The position numbers and the translations under genes are program-made. The notes under the pieces were generated by a model. That model was not told the DNA's origin and searched no databases. It saw nothing but the letters and a program-made list of their open reading frames with translations. 64,000 nt of DNA, taken from assembly GCA_032358255.1 (NCBI GenBank), contig JAULBX010001114.1, forward strand, positions 62,001 to 126,000. The letters are read 5' to 3'. Positions 11,994 through 45,553 of the stretch are shown here, piece after piece. The stretch's first letter is position 1, and each line of letters opens with the position of its first letter. This stretch comes from Heterotrichella gracilis (taxonomy: Eukaryota; Sar; Xanthophyceae; Tribonematales; Xanthonemataceae).

Positions 11994-12467
11994 TCAGTGC
12001 GAGTTCTTCCACGCAAAGAGGGCATCAATGTCCTCCTGTGACATGTTGTACTTCCCCACGATCGCTTGCAGCGATGACAGGTCTGCAGCTTTGTCTCCAA
12101 CAGCTGCATGCACGTCCGCCTGGTCAGCCTGGGCCTTCACCTTCCCCAGCAGCTTTCTCAAGAGCTTCTCGTCCTCCTTCTTGAAAAAGAGTCGCTCTTC
12201 GGCAGCTTCCTGCAGTCAAGAACCAACGGGAGTGACTACTTGACTGACTAAAGGCACACAGCTCTAACCTTGTGGCACACGCTCTTGTCAGTGTGGTATG
12301 CGAGTGTGCATGCATATGCCATTGGGGCACCTTGCGTATACTATACACACCTTGTCATCATAGCCTTTCATGCCGCCCATTGAAAGCATTCTGCATGACA
12401 CCAGCTTTGCTGGGGTGGAGGAAGTGTAGCGCAGGAAAGTTGGCACAATCAGCTTGAGGGAAGCCAT
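11994..12467 (-). CDS. Small probable mitochondrial protein, ATPase-inhibitor (IF1)-like
   Basis: Two minus-strand exons, 12467-12351 and 12209-11994, encode 110 residues. The first exon looks like a mitochondrial presequence: MASLKLIVPTFLRYTSS, hydrophobic and basic with no acidic residue. The second exon has EAAEERLFFKKEDEKLLRKL, which resembles the helical inhibitory segment of plant IF1-type proteins (acidic residues followed by a Phe-Lys-Lys and Leu/Lys pattern), then a less conserved C-terminal stretch ending DALFAWKNSH. IF1 blocks ATP hydrolysis by mitochondrial F1 at low pH. The match rests on a short charged helix, so a different small coiled-coil mitochondrial protein is possible. 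The gene model itself (presequence, clean splice, phase) is stronger than the name. Confidence 0.5.
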
Positions 12468-24378: not shown

Positions 24379-26420
24379 ATGTTCAGATTTGGTGACCATA
24401 ACCTAGAGCAGGCCTATGTCCAGTTTGCAGCCACCCAGTCAAGAAGTCTATCCTGGCTGCTCCAATGCCTTCTGGGCTGTATGGCCCTGCCGTCTGCAGC
24501 CTGGAACTTTCGGCTAGCCATGGAGGCCATGCAAACAAGGTGAGGCAGAGAGGCCTAGGGTTTAGGGTTTAGGGCTAAGGGTTTACGGTTTGGGGGTTTA
24601 GGACACTGCTCTCCGGAGGGGCCCAGTGTCAGTGGATCAGGTACACGGTACTGGTATTTTGATGGTTGCCTCTCCTTCGTGTTTTTCCTGTAATACCCTA
24701 GCTTGCGTACTTGCCAGGGTTTTAGGATGTGGACTTACACCTGCACCGCTTACACCGCTCAGTCCTTGACTGCTTGATATGTCTGTAGCTGTGAGGACCC
24801 ACAACAGAATATCCCATTATACTACAGGAAGTGGCATACAACTGCCTTGCTTTGCGTTCATATCATTGTTTCGTCAGCCGCGCTATGTCAACATGCCCGC
24901 ATTTATAACCAACACCACCCTGGTGTGTTGTGCAGCAACTGGGATGACCTGCAGGCCGCGTGCGTGGTGTTGGTCATAAGCATCTTCACAGTACTGCTGC
25001 ATGCGGTGGTTGCAACACAGATGCGCCGCGGGGACAGGTGGGTCAATCTGCATGTACCTTGCGAAATTGACTCACTCATTGGTAAAACAGTGCTCTCTTT
25101 CATTGTATTGTATTTTATTGTAATGTATTTTGTTGTGTTGTTATCTAACCCGTAGCTTTCAGTTTTTAAATCAATTCGCAGCTGACCCATGCGCGTGTCT
25201 GGCTGTGCAGGGCCTTGGTCAGCCACGAGCAAGTGTTTGTGCAGCTGTATTTGGTCAAGTGCGTTGTGTGCATGGTGGCTGCGGGCACGGCCCCGCACGC
25301 ACTCTGGCGCGAGCACCCACAGCTGCAGGTCATCTTCCTGTGGCTGTGTGGCATCACGGACCAGGTGGGTGGGGGTGGGCAGCTACTAGCGGGGTGGTGT
25401 GATGTGCATGGCTCGTGATCATGATCATTGCTGGCCTCTGTGGCACAAGACTTGAATATGGGGTCAGGCATAACCATCAAATGAAAAAAAAATGGAATTG
25501 GGAGAAATGTTGGAGGCGGATGGCGGATGGCAGATATTGACCAGATTGAAACATTTGATCGCGTGTAGTGGTAAGCTTGCGCTTGGGTGTCCAGCTGTAT
25601 ATGGACATTCACTGCAGATTCACCTCATTTTTCTGCGTGCAGATTCGCGTGTGCACCTGGTGCATGCTGTGCCCCATCTTCTTTGCCGCACACACGGTGG
25701 TGGTCCTGGACTGTGATCTGGACCCGGGCCAACCCCAGGCGGTGTTTAGGGCAGCGGCGGTGGAATTCTGGGGGCTGTCGGGTGTGGCGATGCTGGTGGT
25801 GCTGCTGCGGGAGGTGCGCATGGGGGGAGCTGGGTGGGAGGAGGAGGAAGAGCACCCACATACACCACATGAAGTTTTTGCAAGGGAATTTTGAGTAGTG
25901 CATGGCCACATTCCTTATCAACGCTGGGAGTCCGCTTGGGTAGGGATTGGAGGGGAGGGGGCATCTTGGGTGACGGGAATGGGCGTGGGGGTGATGAGGT
26001 TTATGTGGAAGGCGCGACTAAGTGGGAAGGGGAGGGGAGAGGAGGGCATGTTGGGTTGTAGGGATGATGCATGTACACTTGAGGGTGGTTGGGTTGGGGC
26101 ATGCGCACCTGTCAATGATGGGATTGGCGAGAGGGCCAAATCAGGTCCCACAACAAATTTGAAAATGCGTTCCCTGTGCGTTGCAGGCCAACCTGCGGTA
26201 CTGGTTTCTGATTCACACCAAGGGGCACATGGAGGACTTGGAGCCATTCTGGGGGCACATTGTTTGGTGGGAGAACGCCATCCTGGATTGGACGGGGCCC
26301 CGCAACAAGTGGGCAGATCATGCCAGGCCTGACGCCACCTGCTGTGCTCCTAGCAAGGCCAGTCCAGGGCAATCTGAGGAGGAGCGGTATCGTAGGACGA
26401 ATAAATGCGTACATGGATGA
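24379..26420 (+). CDS. Polytopic membrane protein of unknown function (paralogue A)
   Basis: Five exons in phase: 24379-24539, 24936-25037, 25211-25364, 25643-25813 and 26187-26420 (273 residues). Hydrophobic segments are seen around residues 25-45 (LLQCLLGCMALPSAAW), 60-80 (ACVVLVISIFTVLLHAVVA), 97-112 (YLVKCVVCMVAAGT), 125-138 (VIFLWLCGIT), 145-160 (MLCPIFFAAHTVVVLD) and 178-195 (FWGLSGVAMLVVLL), so five or six membrane spans are likely. The C-terminal 75 residues are hydrophilic. The protein is homologous along its whole length to the product of 59396-62237, with two exons of identical length. No transporter or enzyme family was recognised. The ATG chosen starts the region matched by the paralogue; the frame stays open about 95 bp further upstream. 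Confidence 0.72.
24548..24605. repeat. Interstitial telomere-like tract in intron
   Basis: Imperfect TTTAGGG repeats (TAGGGTTTAGGGTTTAGGG followed by variants) start a few bases after the donor of exon 1 of membrane-protein gene A. Confidence 0.85.
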
Positions 26421-27997: not shown

Positions 27998-30900
27998 CTA
28001 TGCACCGCTGAGGGTTTTGTTCACGATGAGCGCGGCAGTGGACTCGTCCCGTGCCCCGCTGTTGCGCAGCATCAGCACCGGCTCCTCATCCTCCGACCCA
28101 GCAAACCCCCCCTCGCCCCCCCCCACCGCCTCCTCTGTGGGCGTCACTACCGCGCACCCCTGGGTGGAGGTGATGATGCCCAGGGAGTGGGTCTGGCAGT
28201 CGCTGAAGACCTGCAAGGGATGGGAGCCTTGTTCAGGGTTTAAAGGTTTAAAGTTGAGGGTTCTGGCTGTCACTGAACACTTGCAAGGGTGGGAGTCTTG
28301 TTTAGGGTTTATGGTTCTGGTAGTTGCTGAACACCCGCAAGGGGTGGGAGACTTGTTTAGGGTTTAAGGGTTAGGGGTCTGGCAGCCTCTGAACATCTGC
28401 AAAGTGTTGGTGACATGTTAAAGTTGTTGAGGAGGAACCCTAAACCCTACCCAGCAGCACCCACCTGGAAGTCCCGCACGGTGCGCACCCTAAACCCTAA
28501 CCCTAAACCCTAATCTGTACCCACCTGGAACACCTTGCGCACGGTGCGCACCCCAAAGCGCCGCGCAAACAGCGGGCAGGAGGGCGTGAGCAGCTTCGGC
28601 AGCGCCTGCGGGCGTGAACCCTGGGCACACAGCTGGTCCGCAGTGGTGTTGGTCACGTTGACCAAGCCCACCAGGCCCATCCTGCGAGGAAGGGGCGGGG
28701 TTGCTGAGCGTTGCTATGCTGCAATGCTTCTTGAAGCACTCTCAAAGCACGAGGACTGCCATTGCAGTTTTATGCTATAACATGCAGGGCCAATACGGGG
28801 CTACCCCCCCTATGCACTGCCTGTCAAGTTGCCAGTGCACACCCCTAGGATGCCCCTGCAGCTCACCATGGCTCGAATTGGTGCCGACACTTCCCGCCAT
28901 TGCTCCGCAGCTCCTGCACCAACGCTGGCGTCACAGCGCCCGCCCTATGCTCCCACACCAGGCCCTGCCGGGTGTGGTTGTAGATGCTCAGGCCCCCCAC
29001 GCAATCCGACTCCTCCTCCCGCCCTTGCACCGACAGCAGCGTGGCGAAGTAGCGCTCATAAAGCACGCACGCGCTGCAAGGGGGGGTCACGAAGGGGTCA
29101 AAGGGTGTAATGTTGTTAGCATTCAGAGCCGGCGTAGGATTAGGGCATATCACGTGGAATTACTCAACAAGGGTTTAGGGCTGATTTTTAGCGCAATACT
29201 GGATTAGGGTTCAGGGTTTGGGGCTGATCTTTAGGGTTTACGTAAACCCTTTCATACAGCGTGTACGTGCTGCACAAAGCTAGGAAGAGGTTGTCCAGGA
29301 GGTGCACATGGGACACACAAGTGAGAGGGAGAGTGCGGCCCAGCTGTGGTGCTGCTGGGCTTAAAATTTGGGTAGCAGGCGGTGTGGCACTCCTCTACAA
29401 CTACGCCTGCATGCACATGACATTGTCCGCCCATCCCCAAAAATCCTGTACCATCCCCTCCCAACCCACTCCCTGTGGGTGCAAAACCTTAAACCCTACA
29501 CCCCCTCCCGGCCGCACCTCCCATCCGCGGCCCCCAAGTCGAACGCGTCCTTGCAGTGCTGCACCAGCGCCGCCTCCACTCGCGTGTCCTCCATCACCGC
29601 CTCCGCATGTGCGCGCGTGAGGGATACCCACTGGGAGCTGCTGCGCCACTGGTGGGGACCCACGCCGGCGGCTGCCACGGGTGGGGGGTAGGAGGGGTCG
29701 GGGTCGGGGGCGGAGGGGTCCTGGCGAGGGGACGGGACAGTAAGGATTTAGAGGGTAGGGTGGAAAGAGGGTGTATGAGGGGAATATACAGATGCGCAGT
29801 GCAGGAGTGACAACCCCCCACCCCCGCCCCCTCTGCACCCAGCATACTTTCCCCCCCTCCTCCACTCAGGTACAGCGGCAGATCCTTCCTGTCCTGACTG
29901 GACCACCAACCGCACGTTGGCAGGGGGGCCCCACGAGCTGCAAATGCACCCACCACCCCATCGTCCATCAATCCACCATGCACCCACCCTTCACGCCCTT
30001 TTCCCCTCCCTCCCCTTCCACCCATGATTCCTGCAAGCTGCGGACACACCCACCACCCCATGCTGACCCACCACCCCACCGCCCGCCCCTTACACCCCCC
30101 CCCACACCCCCACATCGCTCATCAACCCACCATGCATCCACCCACCATCCTCACCCCCCTCCCCTCCCCGTTCCACCCACCCTGCACGCGTTCACCCTGC
30201 TGCGCGCCTCCCCCACCAGCTGCGAATACACTGCCCCCGCGGGGTACAGCGGCAGGTCCCACTCAGACAGCACTACAAAGCGCACGTTGGCACGGTTGAG
30301 CAGCGCCTGCGCGATGAGCGCCTTGGTGGCGCCCAGCACCGAGCGCGTGTCCCAGGCCTCGATGCGCTGCCGGATGGTGGAGCCGTAGAACACGCTGGCG
30401 CTCACGTAGCCTGCAGAAAATGGTTTGGGAAAGTGTTAGAAAACTTATTTATGCATTTTTGGATTTTTTTGTCAAAAGAAATTCAATCACTGTGAAACAC
30501 GCTTGCGCTCACGTAGCCTGAAATGCGTTGGTGCGTGGGTGAGGGTGTGGGTGCGTGCGTGGGTGCGTGCGTGGGTGTGGGTGGCTGTTGGTGTGGGTGT
30601 GGTCATGTGGGATGGATTTGGGTTTCTTGCACCGTGCACAGCGCCACCCTGATTTTGCTTGTTTGCCATCCACGTTCTCTTGCTCTCGCATATTGTGATC
30701 AGCGATTTTCATATGGTAATTGGGGGCATGCAGGGCAGCCGGTTTGAGGGCCAGATGGTGGAGCAGATTCACACGCTTGTGCTGACATAGCCTGCCGGGA
30801 ACGCAAGTACATGCGTGTGCGCGTGCACATGTGTGAGTGTATTGGAGTGTGGACCTCATGTGGAAGTCTTGCAACACATGGGGAAGTTGAGGGTGCAGGC

Positions 30901-32905
30901 TAGGGTTCAGCTCATTGAGGGCTAGGAGGGTTCAGGCTAGGGCTCAGCCCACCTGGGAACAGTGGCGGCGCGTGCATGTAGATGCTGAACAGGCGCTGGC
31001 GGGACACCAGGGGCAGCTCAGCATTGGTGGCCCAGCACGGGGTCCTGGTCTAATGCAAGCAGGATATCAGCCTGATCGTGATGCCATATGGATGCGTTTG
31101 GTGTGTTGAGAGCCTAAAACTAGGGTTTATATTATTGACCAATGCCCACCTGGGAACCGCGGTGGCGCGTGCGTGTAGATGCTGAACAGGTGCTGGCGGG
31201 ACACCAGGGGCAGCTCAGCATTATCTGCCCCACACAAATAGTACAGGATGGCTGCCGCCTCGCTGTCAGGAGGGTCGCAGGCGGTGGGGGCGAAGGAGGT
31301 GGCTGGGACCAGGCCTGGCGGGGGTGGGGATTGGAGGTGGTGATTGGATGGTGCCATACTGAGCCAGCCGTGCTGTATGGGGTGCATGGGGTGTGCGCCT
31401 TCAAGAGCATGATGCGAAGGGTTTAGATGACGTGTTCTTGGCATTTTGGTTATTTTACAGCCATGGCTGCAGCTCGCTGTCAGGGGGATCGCAGGCGGTG
31501 GGAGCAAAGGAGGTGGCGGGGACCAGGCCTGGTGGGGGTGGGTGGGGGTGGGGGTGATCGAATTATGCCCTATGTAGCATGGTGTGCAAGGGTGTGCGAG
31601 GCGAAGCGATGGGTGCAGATGAGATGCGGTCTGAGATGGCTAGTGTCGGCCAGGGTTTAGGGCTTATGGCTTTGATTGAGCCGCGTGCAGGTATGGCCCC
31701 ACGCTCGACCAGAACGCCGCTAAGGACAAGGTTGGTACTAACGACCATGCCCCGCAATGGGGTTTGGACTGCGATGCTTGTGGTGGGCTGTGGGTGTGCT
31801 GTGCATGGCGTTACCTGCTACGCTGCTGAGCCACAGCGCCCACGTGGCCTCGTGCGGCATGCGCCCCCGTGTGAGGAACAGCAGGGCAACCTTCTGCACG
31901 CCAAACAGCTCCGCGCAGGAGTCATAGCCCTGCGGTGGGGTGGCAAGGGTTTAGGGTCCAGTATGGTGCAGCTTGACGCAGGCTGTATAGCCCTGCGGCA
32001 GGGTATCAAGGGTCTAGGGTTTAGGGTAAGGTACGGCAAAAAGTATCACACAAGCGCCAGCCCTGCAGTGGGCCACCTGCTGTACAAAAGAAAGCTCCTT
32101 GCTCCGTAACCCTGGGGCAGGTTTAGGGTTTAGGGTTGCATGCATACACATGACTGGAGTTGCCATGTTTTACGCAGGCCTTCCAGCCCCTGGATGGGGG
32201 TTAAGTTGTAGGGTGCAGGGTTCAGTATAGTTGCAGCAGGACGTCACTGCGAGTGCAATTACCTGCCTGCCTGCAATGCATGCGTGTTTGTTTTGGAGTG
32301 CTCGCAGGTGGGGTTAGGCGTAAAGCCAGTGAGAGGACAGTCGCATGCATGCAGTGCTATGGTGTGGTTGCACTGCCCGCAGCTTTTGGGTCCAGGCTGC
32401 AGCTGGGAGGATGCATGCATGCATCATTTGGAAAGTGGGCCCAGTGCCCTGTACGCAGTGGGTCATTGTCCCCCTTACTGGTATACATAATAGGGTGCTG
32501 CAAAGAGCAGTTGTGTGCTCGCTACCCAGTACTAGTGAGCCAAGGTACCTCGTTGAACAAGTCTGGGTCGAGGGTGACTGACGACTGGCTCAGGCCCAGG
32601 TTGGGGAAGTGGAGCGTGTAGTCGCTGTTGCGCTGCTTGCGCCGCAGCTTCTCGGCCAGCGTCTTCTGAATAAGTGCCTGTCTTGCCAAGAACCCGCTCC
32701 CTGCCCTCAGGGTATTGCCAGCCTTGTTGCGCACTCCCAAGCGCCCTGTGCCTGGGAGCAGGAAAGGGCGCCTGGGGATCTGTTGCTGTGCTGATGGGCG
32801 GGGCAAGCTGAAAAGCGCCAGGGATAGGAGGAGGAAGAAGATGGCCTGGAGGCGCCCGCTGACACACTCCCAGCGCCTGGTGGGGTGGGTTAGGGCAGGG
32901 GACAT
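27998..32905 (-). CDS. Core-2/I-branching beta-1,6-N-acetylglucosaminyltransferase-like protein (GT14-related, plant BC10 type)
   Basis: Eight minus-strand exons in phase: 32905-32549, 31929-31815, 31314-31150, 30410-30181, 29720-29518, 29073-28867, 28681-28525 and 28210-27998 (548 residues). It is a type II membrane protein with a signal anchor at about residues 19-35 (LQAIFFLLLSLALFSLP). Family hallmarks are KVALLFLTRGRMPHEATWALW, LFSIYTHAPPRFPGGYVSAS, VFYGSTIRQRIEAWDTRSV, ANVRFVVLSEWDLPLY, HQWRSSSQWVSLTRAHAEAV and ESDCVGGLSIYNHTR. Plant members (BC10-like, former DUF266) act in the Golgi and affect cell walls or arabinogalactan proteins; donor and acceptor are not established. Met-32905 was chosen because it places the anchor near the N-terminus. 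The introns carry several extra copies of exon edges with TTTAGGG tracts, including a second copy of the end of exon 3. Confidence 0.87.
28192..28400. repeat. Four tandem copies of an exon-8 5' edge with TTTAGGG tracts
   Basis: The segment containing the acceptor and first codons of the last exon of the minus-strand glycosyltransferase recurs at about 28192, 28262, 28316 and 28379. Each copy keeps TCTGG...CTGAA(G/C)A...TGCAA and the first three are followed by TTTAGGG-like sequence. Only the 28192 copy is the real exon. Confidence 0.75.
28440..28555. repeat. Duplicated exon-7 donor edge separated by CCCTAAA repeats
   Basis: CCCACCTGGAA followed by GCACGGTGCGCACC occurs at 28520-28555 (the true exon end) and again at about 28461-28490. 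CCCTAAACCCTAA tracts lie between and beyond the copies. Confidence 0.75.
29168..29250. repeat. Interstitial telomere-like tract
   Basis: Dispersed GGGTTTAGGG / GGGTTCAGGG variants lie in the intron between exons 5 and 6 of the minus-strand glycosyltransferase gene. Confidence 0.65.
29800..30180. repeat. C-rich low-complexity intron with a degenerate exon-4 copy
   Basis: The intron between exons 4 and 5 is a strongly strand-biased CCCACC/CACCACCCC region. Near 29873-29945 it holds a decayed copy of the exon 4 segment at 30242-30300 (shared GGTACAGCGGCAG and CGCACGTTGGCA blocks). Confidence 0.6.
30525..30600. repeat. G/T-rich microsatellite-like tract
   Basis: Repeats of GTGCGTGG and GTGGGT units in the intron upstream of exon 4 (as transcribed). 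A partial copy of the exon 4 5' edge, TTGCGCTCACGTAGCCTG, lies next to it at about 30504-30521. Confidence 0.65.
30953..31035 (-). pseudogene. Second copy of glycosyltransferase exon 3 (3' part)
   Basis: About 80 bp match 31150-31230 closely. The encoded ends are SRQRLFSIYMHAPPLFPG here and SRQHLFSIYTHAPPRFPG in the chosen exon. The donor is intact, but upstream sequence diverges and no acceptor gives the needed phase, so it is called a non-functional exon duplicate. A regulated alternative exon cannot be excluded. Confidence 0.6.
31470..31540 (-). pseudogene. Second copy of glycosyltransferase exon 3 (5' part)
   Basis: On the minus strand this segment repeats the acceptor region and the codons for PGLVPATSFAPTACDPPDSE found at 31270-31325. 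It breaks off before the rest of the exon. Confidence 0.6.
31921..32140. repeat. Repeated exon-2 acceptor edge with TTTAGGG tracts
   Basis: TAGCCCTGCGG, the exon 2 acceptor of the minus-strand glycosyltransferase read on the plus strand, recurs at about 31925 and 31987, with decayed versions near 32060 and 32107. GGTTTAGGG-type tracts lie between copies. Confidence 0.65.
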
Positions 32906-33563
32906 TGTGTGTGGGGTGTGAGTGGCAAGTGTTTGAGCGGCATCTCGTGTGGTACTCCCGTACGCCACTTGATCCGGTGTACTGGCCACTGCAGTCACAA
33001 TACCACGGGGCGCACTTTGGCAAACGGCTACACCACTGGGCAGTCTGGAAACAGGCTCAACTTTGCAGTCTGACGAGGAAGCCGGTAGTGTGCCCACAGC
33101 GCATCCCACTGTGACAAGAGGAATGGGTGTCTGCAGTTGTCGGGCACCACACGTGCATAAGTATAATCCCTTCCCAACGCTGTCTTACCGCCGTTCTAGG
33201 GCAACGACGGTCTTGCAAAGGGTTCTTCACACAGGCTGTTTGGCCTGTTTTGATGCGATGCCGCCGATGACAGGCGGATTACCGTTATGAATCGGCGGCC
33301 AGTACTGGGCGGCGCGCGTATATGCATGCATTGCAGCCGGCAAGTGAAAACGCTGGCCGCGACTGGCACTGGGGTTATTCACCGCTTGTACACCCGCACC
33401 AACTCCACTTCCCCACGGCTCCTATCTCTGTTTCACAGCTGCTGCGCAAGCAAACAGTCCGAGGTTTCTACTGCGCCATCTCGTCCTATCTAGCCAAATG
33501 CAGTGCGGCTGCCATGCGGGAATTGGCCAGCGCCTGAGCTAGGGACCCTCGTCTGCCGTCACC
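32906..33563. promoter_or_regulatory. Intergenic region between divergent glycosyltransferase and WDR43 genes
   Basis: The 658-bp stretch separates two opposite start codons and should hold both promoters. An upstream in-frame extension of the glycosyltransferase reaches 33109 but lacks conserved features. No RNA gene was recognised. Confidence 0.4.
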
Positions 33564-36500
33564 ATGCTTCCTGGGACCGCTCTTGATGGTCTCCACGTGG
33601 CGTTCAACGCACAGGGCAGCCACCTTGCGCTCACCACAAACGAAGGCAGAGTGCGGGTATTCAACACAGGTGGGCACGGGTACTTGACTCCGAACTGTAG
33701 CCCGCTTGCAGCCAGTGCCGGGGACGCTAACAACTCCATGTTGTACAGGTAACGGACGTCTGCTGCTCAACATCGGCCAGGCTGACAAGCACACAAGCCT
33801 AGAGAACGACAAAGTGTCAGCCACCAAAGGGTCAGTGGAGGAGTACACCAGCGTTGCTTTTGGCGAGTACCACCACCAGGTGGGCGAACAAATCCTGTCA
33901 GTGAATAACCACAAGAGCAACTGGCTGCGGTTGTATGAGCCCTGCACCTAGCTGCCTTGTTGTTGTGGCAGCCTCCTAGGGCAGCAGCCAGGTTGGTTGC
34001 TATGTCGCTGAGCAGACTACTAGGAGTGCCTAACCTGTGTTGGCGCACGCCGCAACGTATGGGGCTTTACCCTGTGCAGCCTGTGCGTTGCTTACGCAAG
34101 CCACGGCATCATCGCACTGCTTGACATGTCTAACGCCCCTGTGGTTCCCGCGCCCAGGAGGCTGAGCAAGGGGAGAAGAAAAAGAAGAAGAAGCGCAAGG
34201 CAGCTGCAGCTGAAGATGCGCCGGTAGCAGACGGCAGCGCCACCCGCCAGGTGGTGTGTGTGGGTACCAGCAACGGGGACGTGAAGGCATTCAGCGTTGA
34301 GACGGGCAAGCTGGTGTGGAGGGCACAAGGGTGCAGCGAAGGGTATGTTTAGGGTTTAGGGTTTAGGGTATGTGGGCGCCCGCGTAGCTTCACTGTATGC
34401 CAACTGACCATTCCCACTTGCCGGTTCACCTTTGTGCATATGCAACACCGCCCATTATCTGCAGGGTGTGTGGCATGTGCATTTTACTAGGCATGGTCGT
34501 ATTGTCTGTCAAGCTTCGGTCCACCGCGACCCCTGCAGTGCTGCACACATGGGGCGGAGGAAGAAAAAAACGAGTATTTTATATACACCTCCGAAACACA
34601 ATCGTGTGGAGACTTATACACCTCTGACAACCTGACGCCCCTTGCACCCATCACAGCATGCATGCCACACACCCTGCATGCATTGCATTGCACCGCACCA
34701 CCGCTACACCCATGCCACTTTAACTCTTCCAGGGTGTTACCTTGTTCCTGCTGCCGCGCTGTAGTCAAGAGTGCTGCTGTGCGCTTTGCAGGGGGGTGAC
34801 AAGTATAGCAAGCGCACATGGCGCGGGCAGCACTTCCTCGCTGGTGGTAGCGGGTGCCGACGGCAACCTGTGTGTGCTGGACAGCCAGACAGGGGCGGTG
34901 GCCAATCGATTCAAGGGGGCTGAAGAGAGCATCAGTGGAGTGGCTGTGTCAGACGGTGTGCACACACACGCACACAGGACACCTCAATTGTACCCCCTGT
35001 CTGTTGAATGTAAAAGTTTTGCATGTTTTCAGTGGTACAGTGAGGGCGGCAGTCAACCTTGCACAGCTTGCGGTGCCCAGCTCTGTCTGTTGTATGCATA
35101 CGTGCGGGTATGCCCAAAATGCCGAAGATCAGGATTGGACGCTTGCTCAAGAGGGTGTTGTGTGTGTGTGTGTGCGCAGATGGCAGCCGAGTGGCTGTGG
35201 GATGTGGCGGGGTAGCGGTGTGGGACTTGCGGGAGCAGCAGCGATTGGCGGCATACACAGGGCACCTGGTAAGAACCCTAACCAAACCCTAGCATGCCTT
35301 GGTCATGTAGTGGGCTGCGGTGGTGGCGGCGCCGTCGTTTCTGTCATAGCCTCCTGGGACATCAATGCTTGTGTCACCAGCACGATTTATTAACAGCCTA
35401 TGGCTTCCGATGTCAACTCAGTGCCTTGTCCAATGGCTGAATTAGAGCCCCGCAGCTGCTCACTTTGTTCCTGACTTCCTCCCCCTGCAGACACCTGTGC
35501 AAGCCATCACCTTCAGCCCTGGCGGGAAATACGCACTGTCCGCAGCGCAAGGGGAGCGCAACATCGCCATCTGGCGGATCCCCACCAAGCCCAAGAAGAA
35601 GACGCAGATCGCCTCGGGGATGCTGTCGCTCCCAGACTCCGTCGCCCACCTGTGCGCCACAGCCTCCACCACAGACGCACAAGGGGGGTTTGGTGTGGTG
35701 GCGGTGACGCAGGCGGGCACTGTGCACGTGTGGCATTGCAAGGTGGATGAGGAGAAGAGGGTGAAGGGGGAGTCGGTGGCTGTCATCAGCGTTGGCAAGA
35801 GCGGGAAGGCGGCGGGGAGCGGGGGCGTGCTGGCGGCCAGCTTTGCAGGAGCAGGTGGGGCACAGGGGCTATTTGTTGGAATTTATTTACATTTTTCTTC
35901 ATGAGAACATTGCAAATGCTCCCAACAAATATAGTGATTTCTAGGGGTGCTGCCATGATGCCGCATCTTGTGTGGTCCTTGACCATGTACCAACGATTCT
36001 GTAGTGGTTTGATGCGAATTGAGCAGGCAAAGCATTGAATCCCTCGTGTCCTAGCTGCGTTTGCGTTTACTGTATCACCTGGTTCTCAGATTGGTGTGCC
36101 CATTTCATGTCGGCATGCGCCTAACCAATGGGGTGTTTTTGCTTGCAGAGTCCTCAGTGCTGGTTGCCAAGGGACACGCCGTGCTGCCAACCTTTGAAAC
36201 GGTACCGCTCCCCGAGCAGGGCGCCAGCCCAGCCACCAGCATTACCCTAAAACCCGCCAGCGCTGGCCTGCTACTGGCCAGCCAACAGCACCAAACCAAA
36301 GCCGCAGATGGCGCCCCCAGCAAGGATGTCACAGTGCTTGGGCCAGAGAGCATCGCAGCGGCCAAGCCGGTGCTCCAAGGGGAGGAGGGTGGCCGGAAAC
36401 GGGGATCCCAGGGGGTGGCTGGGGACGGTGGCCGGGAGGCCAAGGTGGCTCGTTTGGCTAATGGGGATGCGGCGCACAGTGGCTCGGATTCTGAGGGTGG

Positions 36501-37980
36501 CGCTGCTGGGCCTCTCTCAGGTGCGCCTGGTTGTTGGTGCTTGGTGGGTGTTGGGGCAGGGCTGCCCTTAGGATTACACTGGGTAGTGGTTTGTGGAAAT
36601 AGCACATGGCATCAAAATGGGCTTGCATTGATATGCATGTGTATGCCAGCAGTTGAATTCCAGATGCAAACCACGCAGCACAGCATGGCCAGCAAATGGC
36701 TATCCGTCCCTTGCATTTGCGGTTGTTGCTAAGGCCTTTCACATTTTTTGCTGCAGATGCTGAGGTGGTGCCATCAGATCCTCCACTCATGGACCGCTTG
36801 CGGGTGCCTGCGGGGGCGCAACCGGAGGGGGGCGCCGTGGATGTGGCTCGGGCCGGGACGCTGGGCGTGGTGCTGTCTCAAGCCATCCGCTCTGATGACG
36901 CCAACCTCTTGGAGCTGTGCCTTGGGGTCAACAACCCTAGGGTAGGGTAAAGGAACCCAGCCTTGCTGTGTGCCCAGATGGATCTCACGCGCTACAAAGG
37001 ATTTTGCCTGTAATAGCGATATAGAACAAAAATATAGAATAAGTGAAATCGAGTTCTTTGAAGTATAAAACTTTTGATTATCCTTATTTACAACCCCCTT
37101 GTCCCGCAGCTGGTCAACAAGACCATGCGCGACCTTCCCCCGCCCGAGGCCGCCGCCTTCCTGCGCACCCTGGTGGCCCGCCTGCAGTCCCGCCCCTCGC
37201 GCGGCACCGGCCTGGCGGCATGGATCCGCTCCACCCTCCTCACACACACCAGCTTCCTCATGGCATCTCCGGCGGCTGCCGAGCAGCTGGGCGCGCTGTA
37301 CCGGCTGGTGGAAGCGCGGCTGCAGGGCTACTTGCCGCTTCTGAGCCTGCAGGGGCGGCTGGAGCTGCTGCTGGCGCAGGTGCCCCGGGGGGAGGACGGC
37401 GCGCCGGTGGATGTGCAGGCGCCCATGGTGCGTGCGGGGGCTGGTGGCAGGGCATGTGGTTGATGCCAGGGCGTGGTGGTGGTGTGGGCTTGAGGGGCGG
37501 TTGGTGCTTGAAGGGTGGTTGGGCCTGGGGTTTGTTAGGTGTCCATGGGCAAGCGTCCATGGTGCATTCGGGGGTTGTGGGTCTGAGGGGGGGTTGGGGC
37601 GAGGGCATGTGGTGCGTTGATATGCAGGCGCCGGTGGTGGGTCTGGTGGCATGAAGCTACTGGCATGGCCAGCTAGTTCTGGGTTGTGCTGTGCATGGCG
37701 CGTGCTTGAGTGGGGTGTGTGGAACAGGCGTTGACGACAGGCGGTAGCGGACATGCGGTTGTGTGGTGACCCGAGGCTGTGAAGTGACCCCAGGTTGTGG
37801 TTTGGTGTGCAGGTGGTGTACAATGAAGGCGAAGAGGATGGGGAGGGCGTGGAGGTTGAGGATGCCTACGCGGATGTGGGTGACGAGGGGGAGGATGACA
37901 GTGAAATGGAGGAAGAGGAGGAGGATTTCTCGGAAGGGGAGGAGTTTGAAGATGATGACGAGTCTGGGGATGACCTATGA
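33564..37980 (+). CDS. WDR43: WD40 small-subunit processome protein, UTP5/WDR43
   Basis: Ten exons in phase: 33564-33669, 33749-33879, 34158-34342, 34792-34955, 35180-35268, 35491-35854, 36149-36520, 36757-36941, 37110-37427 and 37813-37980 (693 residues). The N-terminal half has WD40-type blades (for example GSHLALTTNEGRVRVFNTG, VVCVGTSNGDVKAFSVETG, VVAGADGNLCVLDSQTGAV, ITFSPGGKYALSAAQGERNI) interrupted by a lysine-rich insert EKKKKKKRKAAA. Residues 475-625 are an Utp12 domain (GTLGVVLSQAIRSDDANLLE, LVNKTMRDLPPPEAAAFLRT, WIRSTLLTHTSFLM), and the C-terminus is a long Asp/Glu tail. Utp5/WDR43 belongs to the t-UTP/UtpA complex, which binds the 5' external spacer of pre-rRNA in the nucleolus and supports rDNA transcription and 18S processing. 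Length agrees with family members of 640-680. Confidence 0.92.
34349..34371. repeat. Interstitial telomere repeats in WDR43 intron
   Basis: Three near-perfect TTTAGGG units directly follow the donor of exon 3 (34342). Confidence 0.9.
37415..37650. repeat. Degenerate copies of the WDR43 exon-9 end in the next intron
   Basis: The exon end ATGTGCAGGCGCCCATGGTG recurs in weakened form near 37549-37566 (GCAAGCGTCCATGGTGCATT) and 37620-37640 (ATATGCAGGCGCCGGTGGTG), each with a following GAGGG/GGGCATGTGG segment. Confidence 0.55.
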
Positions 37981-38833
37981 TGGGGATGGGGACAAATGCG
38001 AGTTTCAATGTTTCTTTGCAGGAATTCTGCCGATGGTCGGCTCGAGATTGCTTATTCACACACACTGAGTTTGCTGGTCCACCAGTTGCTGCGACTATGA
38101 AAGAGATCCGATCTAGACAAAAGGTAGTGATCTATGATAACACATAGTATTGCAAGGGACGCGAAGCGTGGGAGAGCACAGTTCCAGTAGGCGCACACCA
38201 GGGTGCGTAGGGATGAATTGCCAAGGTTTTTGTCAGGTTTGTCAAGGAGAGCGTCTACTGTGTAGCACTAACAAAACAGAATTTAGGGGCTTTCGTGCCC
38301 AAGGATGATCTGTAAGGCAGGCCAAACAACAATTGATGTATCAGCTATTGCACTGACTCAAGAGCCTCCCAACTTGGTGTCAAATAATTGTCAACAACAC
38401 CATGAGGCCAATGTGTCATGCACTGTGCGGATCATCCACCGCTTGGGCCACCATTATCCTGCGCAGGCATGCCAGGCATATTGGATATCCAGTGCTGCAC
38501 GGCTGCAGCTTGGCGTTCACCCTAGGGGGGTTGGTCTGGGGTTGAGCTTTAGGGTTTCAACAAGGGGAGCAGGAAACCCCTAACGTGAACGGACAAGGGG
38601 AGGGTAGCGGCTGCAGCTGGCTATGGCCAGGCTGCAGATGTTTACCGGTGAACATCTTCACGCCAGTACAGAAGGATACGACCGAAGGAAACGTGGCACT
38701 GCTTGACTTCTTCCCTTCCTACATGTATGTGAACTGGTGGTGCAGCTGAGGCCAGGATGCGAGGCAGCGCGATGGCGCACCAGTGGGCCTGCCCACCCAC
38801 CACCAAAGGTGACCTGCTTATCCTTCAAATCCT
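37981..38833. other. Intergenic between WDR43 and acetolactate synthase small subunit
   Basis: About 850 bp with one weak TTTAGGG-like piece near 38548. The true first exon or 5'UTR of the next gene may lie in its right part. No other gene was recognised. Confidence 0.4.
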
Positions 38834-41800
38834 ATGCATGCACCCACTTGCAGCACATCAAACTCACTGAAAACCTTCTTTGTAGGTCATGCTGGGTCTG
38901 CATCACAGAGAGGTGCCGCAGGGCGCACCTGTCCAGGGGTGCTACCTCGCCGTCACCTTGCACCGCATGCATTGAGTAGTAGTGGACAACTGGCAACGTA
39001 CAGCACGCAACGGCGACACACAACGCAGGTAATGCAGTGTATTGTGCTTGGGTTCCATTCGTTGAGCAGTTGTTGAAGCTAACCGTGCATGAGGCTTACT
39101 TCATGATCTGTGCCCACAGCTGCATGCGTCCTCCACCCCAGCGCCAGACACCACGGCTGATGGCACAGAAAAGGAGGTACGGGATGGGGTTGCCACTCGG
39201 TTCATGTCCTTGAGTGTACCAGGGCCACCACTAGTGGTAAGTGCCACCCCTCAGCTGCCAGCTCACTGGTTGCTGGCCTGCAGGAGAGCTACGATGTGTA
39301 TGTGTATGTGCCCACCCCCCTGGCTGAAGGGGAGGAGAAGCACGTGCTGTCTGTATTCGTGGCGGACGAGGCGGGTCTCATCAACCGCGTGGCGGGGGTG
39401 TTCGCGCGGAGAGGTGCGGTGGTGCACCCAAGTGCCAAGTGTCCCCCCATGGTGGGCATTGCCAATGGCATGGCGCATGCAATCCACGGCGATTGTGGTT
39501 GGACAGTGAAGTCAAGAACGACACCAGTGGCCTTGCCCATGACTATATTGAGAGATTCTCACGCGTGCATTCTGCGCAGGTGCCAACATCGAGTCCCTGG
39601 CAGTGGGTCTGAACGTGGACAAGGCGCTGTTCACCATCGTGGTGAATGGAACAGCAAACACCGTGGTTCGCACACAACCCGCACCTGCAGCGCTTGACGT
39701 GCATAGCATGGTTTCTCGCTCCAGCGCATCTCAACACCCGTGACAGTGCTTGCATCACCCCACAGCCCGCACAGGCACCCTTGCCATACTCATCCAACAT
39801 GGATCCAACATGGCTTGGCCAACATAATAATCTCTACCAGCTCGCTAATTATCCTTGACTTTGTTGGGAGCTCATTGCATCATGGCATCCACTGATGCTG
39901 ACATTAGCCAACAGCCTGGCGTGGCATGAGTTGACATGGTGCATCAGAATGTCATAACGCCCGCCGCATATTGCCATAGGCAACTCCAGGGCGTTGTGCA
40001 TTTTGCATCCTGCCGCTTTCCCGCCGCGATGCATCCCCCTTTCTGCTCGACCCACCACCTGGCACGTCCCCTTAATATCTAGGGTTTAGGGTTTAGGGGT
40101 TGTGGCACGTCCCTTCCTTGGATCTCCCTGTTGTGCTGCAGGCCAACCTCGCCAAGCAGGTTGCCAAGCTGGTGTCTGTGCGATACGTGGAGGACATCAC
40201 AGGCAGCGAGCGCGTGGGTACGTACTGGGGTTAAGGGTAGGATCATCGTGCCGCAACAGCATCACTGCCTTGCGGCTGTTGGCCCTGCACGTTTCTGCGC
40301 ATGCACCCGCTCCACCTCGCATGTGCATGGCAGCCTGTGGAACCCATGTGGCTTAAATATGTGCACTGTGCACCAGCAGATATGCATGCATGCATTGGGC
40401 GACCTGGCAAAGGTGTGCATGCGGTTGCCACCTGGCAGCGGCAACACTGTGTCCATGCAGTCGCCTGCCATGTAGCCCCGTCCCTCGTCATTTGCAAATG
40501 CACCGCAATTGTGGTGCCTGTATGCAACATACAACTGCACCCATGCATGCACACATCGACACAGATGCCCTCAGCATCACACCCTCACAACCCCAATCTG
40601 TGGTTTCCTCCCCGCAGAGCGGGAATTGATGCTTCTGAAGCTGCGCGCCCCCCCCGGCCCTGCCCGCACTGAGGTGCTTCAGCTGGCTGAGATCTTCCGC
40701 GCGCGCGTGGTGGATGTGTCGGAGCGGTGCCTCACACTGTGCGCCACCGGCGACCCGGGCAAGGTGGGTGGCGCTTGCATGTGCAAAAATGGAGTGCAGG
40801 GGTGTCCTTTACTCTCCAATTGCATTATAAAGCTTTTGGAACAATTTGTATCAAACCCCTCCAGCCCGAATCAGGGGCATGTGGATGCATGTGGGCTGTG
40901 GACAATGCATAGTACTGCCTCATGCTGTGCGCCACCGGCAACCCATTTATGCATGTGGCACGTGCATGAGCAAGGGGGGATGAGGGCACGGGCAGGGTGG
41001 GTGGTGCACAAGGGAAGAAAGTTTGGGCAGGGTGGATGTCACAGGTCGAGGAATTGTTCATGATTAAACGGCATTTAAAGCAAATCGTGACCATTCAATG
41101 GGAGATAACGGGTTCCACGTGCAGACCATGACCATTCAGCACCAGATCAATAGTATGCAAAACCAGAGCATCGCCATCCTACCCCAGGTTATGTCCCTTT
41201 ACAAGCAGATCATTGCCACCAAACAATTAACACTCTCCAACTCTCCCACATTTTCCCAGCCAAAATCAAGCCATCCCTTGCACTTGCAGATCATCGCCAT
41301 CCAAAAGGTGCTGAGCAAGTTTGGCATCGTTGAGATCGCCCGCACGGGGCGCATCTCCCTCAAGCGCGGCTATGACCTGCTAGACATGGGGGAGTGGGGG
41401 GAGGAGTCGCCCCTGCCACCGGTCAAGCTGGGGCGGGCGGAGGTGAAGGGGCAAAACGGGGGGGTGGCGGCGCCCAGTGGGGGGGATGTGTACACGGCGG
41501 ACCCGCTGGCCTCAGGTGGGGGGTGGGGGAGTGGGTGGGGGGAAAGTGGGGTTAGGGGTATGTGCATGTGTGCAGCTTGAGGGGGATGGCCTGCGATGTT
41601 CATTTGCTCTTGCACACCGGGATCAGCGGTGTCATATATGTTGGTTGGGGGTGGAGGGGTGCTCACATATTAAGTAAAGGGGAGGGGGCGAGGTGTAGTG
41701 TGGTGGGAGGTGTATGATCCGCTGGCATCAGGTCGGGGATGGGGGCTGGGAGGGAGGGGGCACGGTGTGGTTTTTGCATGTGTGCGTCCAGCGACAGTGG

Positions 41801-44674
41801 GTGCATACTGTAGATTTGGTGCCGTAGCATGCACGAGGGAGGGTGGGTTGTGCGGGTGGGGGAGGGCGGGTAGAGGCATGTGGGCAGCCTGAGAGGTGGG
41901 ATGGAGTTGGCTGTGGTGCACATGCTGCGCCATGCCTGACATGGCGAGCAGGCATAGCTGCCGCACGTCCATTCCCTACACATTGCACATTGCTGCAAGC
42001 CCGCTGCCCCTCACCTGAAGCAGCAACCCCTCCCCCTCATATCACACACCATTTCCCCAGGCATCACCCTCTTCTGTATTGCAGTACCCTCCCTCCCCTG
42101 GTGCGCCACCCCCTCCCCCCCCCTCCCATGGCATTAACCCCCCTCCCATCTGCCAATGTTAGTTTTATTTTTAATTCTGCTTATCGTTACCTTTTATTAT
42201 TGTTTTTGCCATGCAGGCGTGTGGGAGGTGAGCAACGTGCTGGACGCAGCCTACGACCGCACAGCCAAGTACGAGCCCCACACCCTCTCCATCGAGGTCA
42301 TCGACACCCCCGGGGTACTGAACCAGGTCACCGGCGTGTTTGCCCGGCGCGGCTACAACGTGCAGTCACTGGCGGTGGGCAACTCGGAAAAACCCGGGGA
42401 GAGCCGCATCACCATGGTGGTCCCCGGGACCGGCCAGGGGGCTGGCAAGCTTGTGAACCAGCTGAACAAGCTGGTGTATGTGCAGAAGGTTACTGACCTC
42501 ACCTCGGTGCCCATGTCGCTGCGGGAGCTGATGCTCATCAAGGTGAGGCTGGTACCAATTACTGTTTAGGACAATTGTGGGGTGGATGGGGTCTAGGGTG
42601 TGGCATTGTAGCGAGGTGGAGGGCGTGGGATTCAGGGTTGCCGGGTGGGGGGTAGAGATGGGGACATCGTGTCTGGCATTTTGTGGGTGGGAGGTATGTG
42701 CGGAAGGTTACTGACCTCACGTCGGTGCCCATGTCGCTGCGGGAGCCGATGCTCATCAAGGTGAGGCTGGTACCAATTACTGTTTAGGACAATTGTGGGG
42801 TGGATGGGGTCTAGGGTGTGGCATTGTAGCGAGGTGGANNNNNNNNNNNNNNNNNNNNNNNNNNNNNNNNNNNNNNNNNNNNNNNNNNNNNNNNNNNNNN
42901 NNNNNNNNNNNNNNNNNNNNNNNNNNNNNNNNNNNNNNATGGGGACATCGTGTCTGGCATTTTGTGGGTGGGAGGTATGTGCGGAAGGTTACTGACCTCA
43001 CGTCGGTGCCCATGTTGCTGCGGGAGCCGATGCTCATCAAGATGAGGCTGGTACCAATTACTGTTTAGGACAATTGTGGGGTGGATGGGGTTGTTTGGTT
43101 AGAGAAAGACACTTAGAAGCGTGGGATGTAGGGTTGCTGGGTTGGGTGTCGAGGTAGAGGCATTGTGTGGGTGGGATTGTGTGCAGAAGGTGACTGACCT
43201 CACCTCGGTGCCCATGTCGCTGCGGGAGCTGATGCTCATCAAGGTGAGGGTAGTAATCTTTGGAAAATATCGGTTGGCACTACCACAAGGAAATATTGTT
43301 TTTTGCCCCGCTTGGTCCCTTTCCGTTTTTGTTTATGATGTACAAAATGGTGGTATCATGACAGAACCCGTGTGATCCGGTTTTGAAGGATAAGTTCAGG
43401 ACTCATCCCTCGTCATCCTTGCACCCCTGCACCCCCACCCCCGTCCTCATCCTTGCCCCCCCCACCCACTACTACGCACCCACCCACCCCTTTCCCCCAC
43501 CCGCCTCAGGTCCAATGCACCGCCGCCCAGCGTGGCGAGATCACCGACCTTGCGCAGATCTTCCGCGCCGCTGTGTGCGATGTGTCCCTGGACACAGTCA
43601 GCCTGGAGGTGACGGGCAAGGAGGACAAGATGACCAAGATCCAGGAGCTGCTGCAGCCATATGGTGAGGACAAAACCCTAAACCCTAAATGTTAATCCCA
43701 AAACTCTAGACTTTAGGACAAGATGACCAAGATCCAGGAGCTGCTGCAGCCATACGGTGAGGGCAAAACCCTAAACCCTAAATCCTAAATCCTCAACCCT
43801 AGGACAAGACGACCACGATCCAGGAGCTGCTGCAGCCATAAGGTGACGGAAAAACCCTAAATCTTACATCCTAAACCCTAAACCCTAGGACAAGATAACC
43901 GAGATCCAGGGGCTGCTGCAGCCATACGGTGAGGGCAAAACCCTGAACCCTGAACACTTGGACAAGATGACAGGAGCTGCTGCAACCATACATTGGTGCA
44001 AAACCCTTGCTTTGAACCCCACATCCAGGGTTGGTGTGGTCACTGCATCCGATTCGGCGGTGTTGATGAGATGCGTTTTGGGTAAATGGCTGTGCTGGGC
44101 TAGCTATGGAATCGTACTAACATGGGTCTCGCATCAGTAACATGGTTTTTTTGCTAGGCGGCGGTGTGTATACCGATGTGCTTGCCCTCATTGCTGGTAA
44201 TGGATGCAAATACTGCCCTGCTGGGTTGGACTATGTGCACCGCCATGCATGTCCCCATTGCAGTGTGGCCTTGTACTTCCTGACCTGCATACCCCACTGC
44301 TTGGTGTCGCTGGGCGCATTGCCCTGAATGGGTCACCGCGACGTGGTGGTGTGCACGCCGGCTTTATCAAGAAACATTACACACTTATAATGTATATCTC
44401 TATTAGTATATAGACAAATAATATACTGGGTTATTGTATAGTAAGAAACAATGAACCCAGCGCTGGATGGGTACTGTGGGTACTGTGCCCCTACGCATCA
44501 CAGGGGTCATGCTGTGTCCTCGTAAAACCCTAACCATTAAACCTAAACCCTGCCTGTGCTCACCCTGCAGGCATTCTGGAGATTGCTCGCACGGGCCGTG
44601 TGGCGTTGTCGCGTGAGTCGGGCGTGGATAGCAAGTACCTGGCGCAAATGCAGGGGGGCCGCGTCATGGTGTGA
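38834..44674 (+). CDS. Acetolactate synthase (AHAS) regulatory small subunit, two-repeat plant type
   Basis: Exons in phase: 38834-39028, 39120-39176, 39284-39413, 39580-39665, 40142-40217, 40618-40763, 41290-41515, 42217-42542, 43510-43663 and 44571-44674 (499 residues). Residues 1-84 are basic and Ser/Thr/Ala-rich, as expected of a plastid transit peptide. Two IlvH-type halves follow: the first starts at about 95 ([43 protein letters not shown]), the second at about 320 ([61 protein letters not shown]). Each has an ACT domain. The subunit activates the plastid enzyme of branched-chain amino acid synthesis and gives feedback inhibition by valine, leucine and isoleucine. The start is uncertain because an acceptor-like TTTGTAG at about 38886 could mean an upstream first exon. 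The introns after exons 8 and 9 carry tandem copies of those exon ends. Confidence 0.9.
42486..43243 (+). repeat. Tandem copies of acetolactate synthase exon-8 end plus intron start, with N gap
   Basis: The last about 57 bp of exon 8 and the following intron are repeated: unit starts are at 42486, 42704, 42985 and 43187. The first period is 218 bp. Copies 2 and 3 match copy 1 closely (GGAGCTG becomes GGAGCCG) and the fourth is more diverged. Copies keep the AAGGTGAGG donor. The assembly gap lies inside copy 2. Confidence 0.9.
42839..42938. other. Assembly gap (100 N)
   Basis: Exactly 100 N within a 218-bp tandem repeat. By comparison with the previous unit only about 37 bp are missing (or 37 plus whole units), so the gap size is probably a placeholder. 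Confidence 0.95.
43624..44010 (+). repeat. Five tandem copies of acetolactate synthase exon-9 end with CCCTAAA tracts
   Basis: GACAAGATGACC...CAGGAGCTGCTGCAGCCAT followed by a donor-like GGTGAGG begins at 43624 (true exon) and recurs at 43717, 43803, 43889 and 43961. Spacings are 93, 86, 86 and 72 bp. Each copy is followed by AAAACCCTAAACCCTAAAT-type telomere-like sequence. Copies decay towards the right. Confidence 0.92.
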
Positions 44675-45553
44675 GGCGGGGGACTGTGTCAGGGCACAGG
44701 TTGCGGCTTGCAACTGTGCACAGGTTGGGGGCCGCAAATGTGCACAGGTTAGGGCCTGCGACAGTGCACAGGTTGGGGGACTGGGACGGTCATCCGTCGG
44801 TACAGTGCAGTGGGAGGTGGAGTAGGTGTTGAGGGGGGGTGTTCCAGGGAGCGGGGTAAGAATTGCTGGCTGCGGCGCAGGCCCAGTGGCGGCACTTGAA
44901 GTATCTTGTACAGTTCTGATTCTCAGAGGTGGTGCACATAAGGCAGCCGCTGCCTTGAAAACAGTATTGGATTTTCACCTTAGTGGCTGTAGCTGCAACA
45001 TGCACCACAGTTTGTAGAGGCGGTTTTAATTGGCCCACGGCAACGCTACGAATTCCAGTAGTCCTTCCCAAATCGCTATCTGTACCTGGTTCATCGAGTT
45101 TGGACAATAGTGCTGACCACACTTGTGACCCTCTAGCGCCTGGCATGGCCGTGGGGAGATCAACGCTGGATAATCATCAGTGCTTTAATGGTGTAACTTT
45201 TGCGATTACCAGCTGGCGCACAACTTTATAAACAATGTTCAATTTAATAAACTGTTGAAAGTTTATAAATAAACTGTTGAAAGCTTCATATTTTATTGAA
45301 CATCCATGCAGTTGATTTTGCTAGAACGTATTGCAACTCCAACCACCGCTGGATGACATTGTAATACCTTGAGCTTTTGGAGTCTTTTGAGAGGATCCTT
45401 TGAGACTCTTTTGAGCATGATGCTCAGAGTCAAATTCACGAGTCTTGGCATTGTCAACACGGCGTGTGACACAGTGTACCCACCACATTGTTATGATATA
45501 TCGGGCATGCTATTAATTTACAGGCTGCAGCAGCTGAGAAGGGAACTGAGTTG
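44675..45553. other. Intergenic between convergent genes
   Basis: The first 120 bp hold four copies of a GTGCACAGGTTG(G/C)GG unit at about 44692-44775. Further right, AATAAACTGTTGAAAG is duplicated at about 45246 and 45268. No gene was recognised. Confidence 0.45.

Follow-up and report, generated by a model that had tools for sequence, protein, structure and literature searches.

Genes in the window

The window analysed here is a 64 kb stretch of DNA from the alga Heterotrichella gracilis (contig JAULBX010001114.1). All tests refer to this one window, in which 11 gene models contain 47 introns and 18,519 intron bases. A WDR43-like gene and the small subunit of acetolactate synthase (ALS) were modelled first, and the other models were obtained with a simple gene finder trained on those two. 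The 47-intron set leaves out two mini-exons of a glycosyltransferase (GT) gene (29822-29832 and 29988-30030), the terminal mini-exons of some models, and predictions that were short or had one exon only, such as 11994-12380 and 48659-49369. In the GT model the boundary at 31929 was set by hand, and the two mini-exons were removed by hand. Four genes carry the copies described below.

27998-32905, minus strand: Core-2/I-branching-type GT gene (gene finder; Pfam PF02485, Branch, E = 3.8e-20), modelled with eight exons at 27998-28210, 28525-28681, 28867-29073, 29518-29720, 30181-30410, 31150-31314, 31815-31929 and 32549-32905
33564-37980, plus strand: WDR43-like gene with 10 exons, a stop-free spliced model with Pfam matches to Utp12 and WD40
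39284-44674, plus strand: ALS small subunit, eight exons modelled (Pfam PF10369, ALS_ss_C, 1.2e-56), the gene start being missing from the model
59774-62237, plus strand: membrane protein gene (membrane gene B), four exons modelled by the gene finder

The predicted ALS small subunit aligns with the plant chain PDB 6u9h_F (E = 1.3e-116), and the alignment is contiguous over both introns that hold arrays. This plant-type small subunit, TTTAGGG and the gene structure give the DNA a green-alga-like character. Pfam matches identify neighbouring genes as PRMT, dynein light chain, P450, exostosin and cyclophilin/RRM, and the membrane gene and a gene at 13-16 kb have no Pfam match over the curated cut-off. 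The labels 'WDR43', 'PPIL4' and macro-domain gene, in part taken over from an initial annotation of this DNA, are presumptive. The commonest 7-mers of the whole window are GCATGCA and ATGCATG, with 114 and 97 occurrences.

Copies of exon edges in adjacent introns

The initial annotation described exon edges copied into adjacent introns in at least five independent genes. Base-by-base alignments confirm copies at all of the places cited, those of the WDR43-like exon 9 only weakly, but the number of genes comes down to four, as both ALS arrays belong to one gene. Further copied edges were found at GT 31150, 31314 and 30410 and at ALS 40763, with weak ones at ALS 41515 and 41290. The copies were said to go with TTTAGGG: exact tracts do occur in copy-bearing introns of the GT and ALS genes, and none occurs in those of the other two genes.

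In the GT gene (minus strand) the features are as follows.

28189-28419, minus strand: acceptor-edge array of exon 27998-28210 (acceptor 28210), source and three copies separated by TTTAGGG-like DNA, which is degenerate between the source and the first copy; Tandem Repeats Finder (TRF) reports a tandem array at 28259-28366
28436-28557, minus strand: donor edge of exon 28525-28681 (donor 28525), source within 28519-28557 and one copy at 28459-28494; read in the sense direction, a tract follows each (28487-28513 and 28436-28449)
30369-30795, minus strand: acceptor edge of exon 30181-30410, copies at 30496-30531 and 30750-30795 (33/40 and 38/49 bases), without an exact tract
30947-31222, minus strand: donor edge of exon 31150-31314, source 31144-31222 and a 94% copy at 30947-31025 (74/79), with a 9-bp tract (31121-31129) between them; homology stops 6 bp into the intron
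31248-31572, minus strand: acceptor edge of the same exon (acceptor 31314), source 31248-31358 and an 83% copy at 31463-31572 (85/99), again with a 9-bp tract (31418-31426) between them
31906-32137, minus strand: acceptor edge of exon 31815-31929 (acceptor 31929), one copy at 31969-32017 (39/50), with tracts at 31946-31957, 32009-32027 and 32120-32137

The ALS gene (plus strand) holds two larger donor-edge arrays and several weaker copies.

40728-41007, plus strand: donor edge of exon 40618-40763, two copied pieces at 40916-40944 and 40989-41007 (26/29 and 17/19), without an exact tract
41164-41305, plus strand: acceptor edge of exon 41290-41515, two short, weak copies at 41164-41179 and 41194-41223 (15/16 and 26/32); this acceptor lies outside the list of significant edges in the copy-rate test
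41500-41785, plus strand: donor edge of exon 41290-41515, one weak copy (71%, 52/74, p = 0.02)
42476-43255, plus strand: donor-edge array, source and three copies, the first copy shifted by 218 bp, without an exact tract
43622-44007, plus strand: donor-edge array, a source with three good copies plus a decayed one, each of these followed by CCCTAAA-type DNA, which is degenerate after the last two; TRF reports a tandem array at 43622-43951

Stretches of copies 2 and 3 in the 42476 array are 98.7% alike. The array contains 100 N at 42839-42938, so its copy number is uncertain. At the copy starting near 43180 homology ends 6-12 bp into the intron, a range shared with the GT 30947 copy. Such a sharp end just inside the intron is clear at these two copies only; the others extend further.

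The remaining features lie in the WDR43-like gene, in the membrane gene and beyond the gene models.

37411-37642, plus strand: donor edge of WDR43-like exon 9, two weak copies at 37545-37573 and 37616-37642 (24/29 and 22/27 bases; self-BLAST E = 1e-3), without an exact tract
60614-60758, plus strand: acceptor edge of the membrane gene exon 60715-60880, an 86% upstream copy (60614-60677) of 60694-60758, without a tract
60960-61111, plus strand: intron-only tandem duplication (60960/61037) in the membrane gene, without a tract
57760-57998, no strand assigned: tract-bearing local array with no modelled exon edge, found by self-comparison of the window

The last two features, together with duplications at 29951/30105 (low complexity), 29869/30243 (exon interior) and 17017/17225 (beyond the gene models), include no splice site and contradict the claim that the duplicates always include one. 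Because the tract-bearing array at 57760-57998 holds no modelled exon edge, an exon edge seems not to be required for array formation; any gene at that place lies outside the gene models.

Two known classes of intron sequence were considered. An introner-type element is rejected for this window, as the genes share no intron sequence at E of 1e-3: self-comparison of the one window at that threshold found no near-identical sequence among different introns. The only distant self-match is one pair of telomeric tracts; apart from one palindrome, the remaining matches are local. Head-to-tail copies of one unit, as in minisatellites, are present at 28259-28366 and 43622-43951 according to TRF.

Copy rates at exon edges, in exons and in introns

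We compared 36-base segments by their best copy in the same or an adjoining intron, counting copies with a score of at least 15; some exons were compared with both neighbouring introns. Exon edges have such a copy in 9 of 94 cases and exon-interior segments in 5 of 327 (Fisher p = 0.0007). The excess of edge copies over random intron segments that the initial annotation implied is not significant within the window: intron segments reach 32/234 (Fisher p = 0.36), and those outside the edge-derived arrays 12/199 (p = 0.33). When the low-complexity stretch of one GT intron is also removed the intron control falls to 8/194 (p = 0.11), and the array list behind the cleaned control was chosen by hand. 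In so small a sample an edge excess over introns of up to about two-fold is compatible with the data. Based on comparison with shuffled introns, 40 of the 234 intron segments have a repeat at p <= 0.05, many of them from arrays. Together with the gene-level BLAST this means that direct repeats in introns exceed chance, as described for Daphnia.

The expected share of splice sites depends on the size of the duplicated unit. A tandem duplication that is placed at random and tolerated, with a unit of 80-218 bp, includes a splice site in 31-69% of cases. Gene-level BLAST found that 10 of 14 primary duplications, in our own grouping, take in an edge, or 11 of 14 if one that falls 7 bp short is counted. 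By hand interpolation the expectation is about 8/14 if the spacing of copies is the unit and 3-4/14 if the aligned length is the unit. The overall pattern is that expected if duplications land anywhere and those confined to exons vanish. Copies of exon sequence may also stay recognisable for longer, as one partner is under coding constraint.

Abundance and position of TTTAGGG tracts

TTTAGGG tracts of score >= 9 number 34 in the window and 0-5 in each of 20 Markov shuffles, so that internal telomere-repeat tracts exceed chance as in interstitial telomeric sequences. The signal is specific to the heptamer: there are 38 TTTAGGG runs and at most 7 for any of 19 other letter orders, and the seven rotations of TTTAGGG are seven of the eight top observed-to-expected ratios among 7-mers seen at least 15 times. 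TTTAGGG is described as the ancestral green-algal telomere repeat (PMC8226300) and may not be the host's own telomere.

Tract density per kb is 1.08 in modelled introns, 0.34 outside the models and 0.19 in exons. The distribution is uneven, with 21 of the 34 tracts at 28000-45000, about a quarter of the window, where the majority of local duplications also lie; six genes located between 0.7 and 26 kb have no exact tract in their modelled introns. The longest tracts (about 40 bp; 24556-24595 and 55400-55438) both lie beyond modelled introns. For neither does an anchored test give a flanking copy next to the tract, and a looser flank test gives the tract at 55400 a weak, more distant direct match (p = 0.04). 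Three single tracts illustrate the intronic set.

34347-34369, plus strand: tract of three TTTAGGG units, 4 bp downstream of the WDR43-like exon 3 donor
40060-40115, plus strand: tract 40080-40098 in an ALS intron, between 13-bp direct repeats at 40060-40072 and 40103-40115
44525-44551, plus strand: tract of CCCTAAA type, 19 bp upstream of the final ALS exon, without a copied edge

The tract at 40080-40098 is the best case resembling a target duplication (anchored p = 0.015; p of 0.007 window-wide and 0.034 in the introns of the four genes).

Tracts lie close to splice sites. Of the 11 intronic tract loci, which are confined to three genes, 7 are within 25 bp of a splice site, compared with 14% (about 1.6 loci) at random placement (P about 1e-4); for single-tract loci the count is 4 of 7 (P about 0.003). 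The density of GGG and CCC does not explain this, as placement on these triplets predicts 1.3 of the 11. In a looser scan 10 of 31 telomere-like stretches are near intron ends, compared with 50 of 243 summed over 19 permuted heptamers. As the permuted heptamers also reach 50/243, base composition accounts for part of the position effect. The position effect at splice sites is, unproven as it is, the most interesting residue of the finding.

Two more specific rules were rejected. A strand rule, with the G-strand after donors and the C-strand before acceptors, meets the same donor bias in letter permutations and is mostly base composition. Priming of telomerase on the donor GGG or the CCC before the acceptor is not borne out, as GGG and CCC positions do not explain the placement; the junctions are few.

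Pattern scans of outside sequence for two tracts 30-60 bp apart returned 4 viral contigs, which on visual inspection look phage-like, together with at least 120 prokaryote stretches; no algal DNA was recognised among the matches listed. The prokaryote matches listed (80 of at least 120) are bacterial or archaeal by title. The four viral contigs, from IMG/VR, are similar to one another around the match and by eye have CCCTAAA runs that stop just before an ATG.

Association of tracts with copies

An exact tract is present in 5 of 10 introns with edge copies and in 3 of 37 other introns (p = 0.007). Within the four copy-bearing genes the figures are 5/10 and 3/16 (p = 0.19). Based on 17 duplicated places, which were chosen by hand, 5 have an exact tract; the expectation is 1.95 over all modelled genes (P = 0.04), 3.3 under a four-gene null (P = 0.2) and 5.0 under a gene-matched null (P = 0.6). 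Thus tracts and copies have common genes more than common places.

At the level of single tracts, 4 of 22 loci lie between two copies (a direct repeat within 8 bp on either side), compared with a background of 3.2% from the introns of the four genes (p = 0.005, a value that counts multi-tract loci uncorrected). A duplicated flank in a minority of loci is also what characterises interstitial telomeric sequences. The other 18 of the 22 loci have no adjacent copy at the score used. In the looser flank test (p <= 0.05) direct flanks are found at 12 of 34 tracts and inverted flanks at 3 of 34, with array tracts counted separately. The claimed association with TTTAGGG therefore divides: it stands for the 4 of 22 loci between copies and for the 7 of 11 near splice sites, and it does not for the duplicated places, which have 5/17 tracts where 5.0 are expected.

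Array formation and fate of the copies

Three of the four copies in the ALS array at 43622 have their start at one common exon base and continue past the donor into CCCTAAA-type DNA. The three copies of the GT array at 28189 reach 22, 23 and 26 bases into the exon and have telomere-like DNA at their other end. The simplest reading of both would be one founding junction followed by tandem expansion. One founding event is favoured because the copies mostly share, or nearly share, their start or end and the tract sits within the unit; repeated independent repairs are disfavoured because they would give scattered junctions. The reading as repeated break repair holds up in part. Break repair fits some loci, namely the 13-bp flanks of 40080-40098 and the 4 of 22 tract loci between copies, but its repeated, independent occurrence is at odds with the junctions of ALS 43622 and GT 28189, and several edges have no tract between copies.

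If the splice sites of the copies were used, 11 of 12 would cause early stops (correctly placed sites, with the acceptor at ALS 41210 left out). The upstream acceptor copy in the membrane gene (60634) would extend the exon by 81 bases, in frame and free of stops. Over 10 copies, which are partly non-independent, codon changes comprise 21 nonsynonymous, including one stop, and 16 synonymous, and the copies overall are under no clear coding constraint. The acceptor-edge copy at GT 31457-31527 has 6 synonymous and 1 nonsynonymous codon changes, as if once coding. The final copy in the ALS array at 42476, located at 43187-43243, keeps its splice sites and frame intact, with one synonymous difference from the exon in the compared stretch. 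The gene finder takes it as a 57-base in-frame exon, and from its sequence it might be a candidate cassette exon; its 19 residues are absent from the protein alignment with 6u9h_F.

Origin of the copies and tracts

We think it somewhat more likely than not that the edge copies are mostly local duplications, made by break repair or template switching and filtered by splicing, to which interstitial telomeric insertions were added and sometimes co-amplified. Error-prone repair or template switching would let short local direct duplications pile up in the introns of several genes. As exon-interior copies are depleted, we infer that a duplication lying wholly within an exon would harm the protein and be lost, and that one across a splice site would survive, with one copy still splicing and the other leaving with the intron. 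Because this filter would spare edge-spanning duplications, the survivors would seem aimed at exon edges. TTTAGGG would have been inserted separately at many interstitial sites, probably at repaired breaks, and where a tract lay within a duplicated stretch the unit of edge plus tract would have been amplified in tandem, as at ALS 43622 and GT 28189. Some observations fit this explanation less well. The cleaned control (8/194 compared with 9/94, p = 0.11) leaves room for a moderate edge excess, and the 10 of 14 duplications that include an edge exceed the 3-4 expected if the aligned length is the unit. The position of tracts near splice sites (7/11 within 25 bp) is not predicted by a duplication filter alone, and the stop of homology 6-12 bp into the intron at GT 30947 and ALS 43180 is unlike tandem duplication followed by decay.

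The initial annotation had proposed that breaks at exon-intron borders are repaired repeatedly and that telomerase adds TTTAGGG in the same event in which the flank and its splice site are copied, which would make the process a separate way for introns to grow and for splice sites to arise. We consider this single-event model unlikely. It gains from the 4 of 22 tract loci directly between two copies, from the tracts near splice sites (7 of 11 intronic loci within 25 bp; 4 of 7 single-tract loci) and from the number of duplicated places with tracts beyond the all-gene null (5/17 compared with 1.95, P = 0.04). It is weakened by the lack of a significant edge-copy excess over intron segments, by tracts in duplicated places at the gene-matched expectation (5/17 compared with 5.0), by copies without an exact tract in the WDR43-like gene, the membrane gene and several ALS introns, and by the 50 of 243 permuted-heptamer stretches near intron ends, which point partly to composition. 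The tracts might also have come first: a G-rich intronic TTTAGGG would stall replication, and the polymerase would slip back to the exon edge and recopy edge and tract. At GT 28189, 28519 and 31906, at ALS 43622 and in the array at 57760, telomere-like DNA follows the copies (partly by eye), and the tract therefore belongs to the duplicated unit; the GT 28525 copy also starts at an exon TTTGGGG, similar to TTTAGGG. Yet 18 of 22 tract loci have no adjacent copy, many copies have no exact tract, and the handful of junctions has no statistical power, so that we hold this order of events to be about equally improbable. Retention of the copies as alternative splice sites or exons, to which the stop-free 81 in-frame bases of the membrane-gene copy at 60634 and the ALS copy at 43187-43243 (intact ends, a 57-base in-frame exon, one synonymous change) lend something, is very unlikely given the early stops at 11 of 12 sites, the alignment of the ALS protein to 6u9h_F without the extra 19 residues, and several copies that have no GT or AG or carry a stop. 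The 100-N gap inside the ALS 42476 array, where copies 2 and 3 are 98.7% alike, might suggest repeats falsely expanded or joined during assembly; elsewhere every aligned copy differs from its source, the most similar of the long ones at 2 of 54 bases, and an artefact is in our view barely credible.

The position effect of the tracts allows a further, quite doubtful conjecture: that telomere insertion is directed to, or best tolerated within, 25 bp of either intron end, that a tract then seeds repeated copying of the splice site, and that introns would thereby grow outward from their ends with spare splice sites. If the position effect is true genome-wide, break repair with telomeric DNA would have a measurable hot spot at intron ends, and these would hold a direct, datable record of intron lengthening and of the origin of decoy splice sites. 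If it is false, the window is still a clean example of how a splicing filter makes random duplications look targeted.

Comparison with known systems

Mammalian genomes contain short interstitial telomeric sequences at double-strand breaks, with a target duplication reported at 6 of 130 rodent and 4 of 25 primate loci (PMC2246262). For the horse, direct target duplication is given at 3 of 66 loci, and 2 more show deletion, addition and duplication (PMC7215372). The tracts described here are like these insertions in being short and internal and in having a duplicated target at some loci, here 4 of 22 with copies on both sides. They differ in being of the plant-type heptamer and often near intron ends in three genes, whereas the intronic fraction of human interstitial telomeric sequences is reported to be as chance predicts (PMC7215372). 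The duplicated flanks also reach about 50 bp here and have in places grown into tandem arrays. Insertion at breaks in mammals was inferred by comparison with loci lacking the repeat (PMC2246262, PMC7215372), and the mammalian cases thus rest on an empty site, whereas those of the window are known from one sequence alone.

In Daphnia, direct repeats from staggered breaks, at 55 of 90 new and 100 of 617 established introns, are held to lengthen young introns (PMC4202315). Lengthening of introns by direct repeats from break repair is the likeness. The Daphnia repeats common to the adjacent exon are 4-12 bp, whereas the edge copies here align over about 16-110 bp, and the introns described here are not known to be of recent origin.

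For plant telo boxes (AAACCCTA) a published model has the motif spread by telomerase on free 3' ends (PMC3022908). The same motif is scattered through genes in the window; plant telo boxes are described as densest in 5' UTRs (PMC3022908), and here it is densest in modelled introns. Intron density per Mb is 150.7 in Arabidopsis, 72 in rice and 1242 here (18.5 kb of modelled introns; 595 for the whole window), where both strands of one local region are counted, not a genome average, and the strand rule of the plant figures may differ.

Intronic minisatellites that span a splice site are a further kind to compare, on which a literature search brought up only loosely related papers. The arrays resemble them in having tandem units of about 55-220 bp that expand in place, and differ in the pairing of an exon edge with telomere-type DNA. 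Among the titles and abstract beginnings searched, which cover few subscription journals, we found no report of exon-edge copies with TTTAGGG in introns. On present evidence, the components have precedents in mammals, Daphnia and plants, and what is seen at the splice sites of this alga is a variant that combines them.
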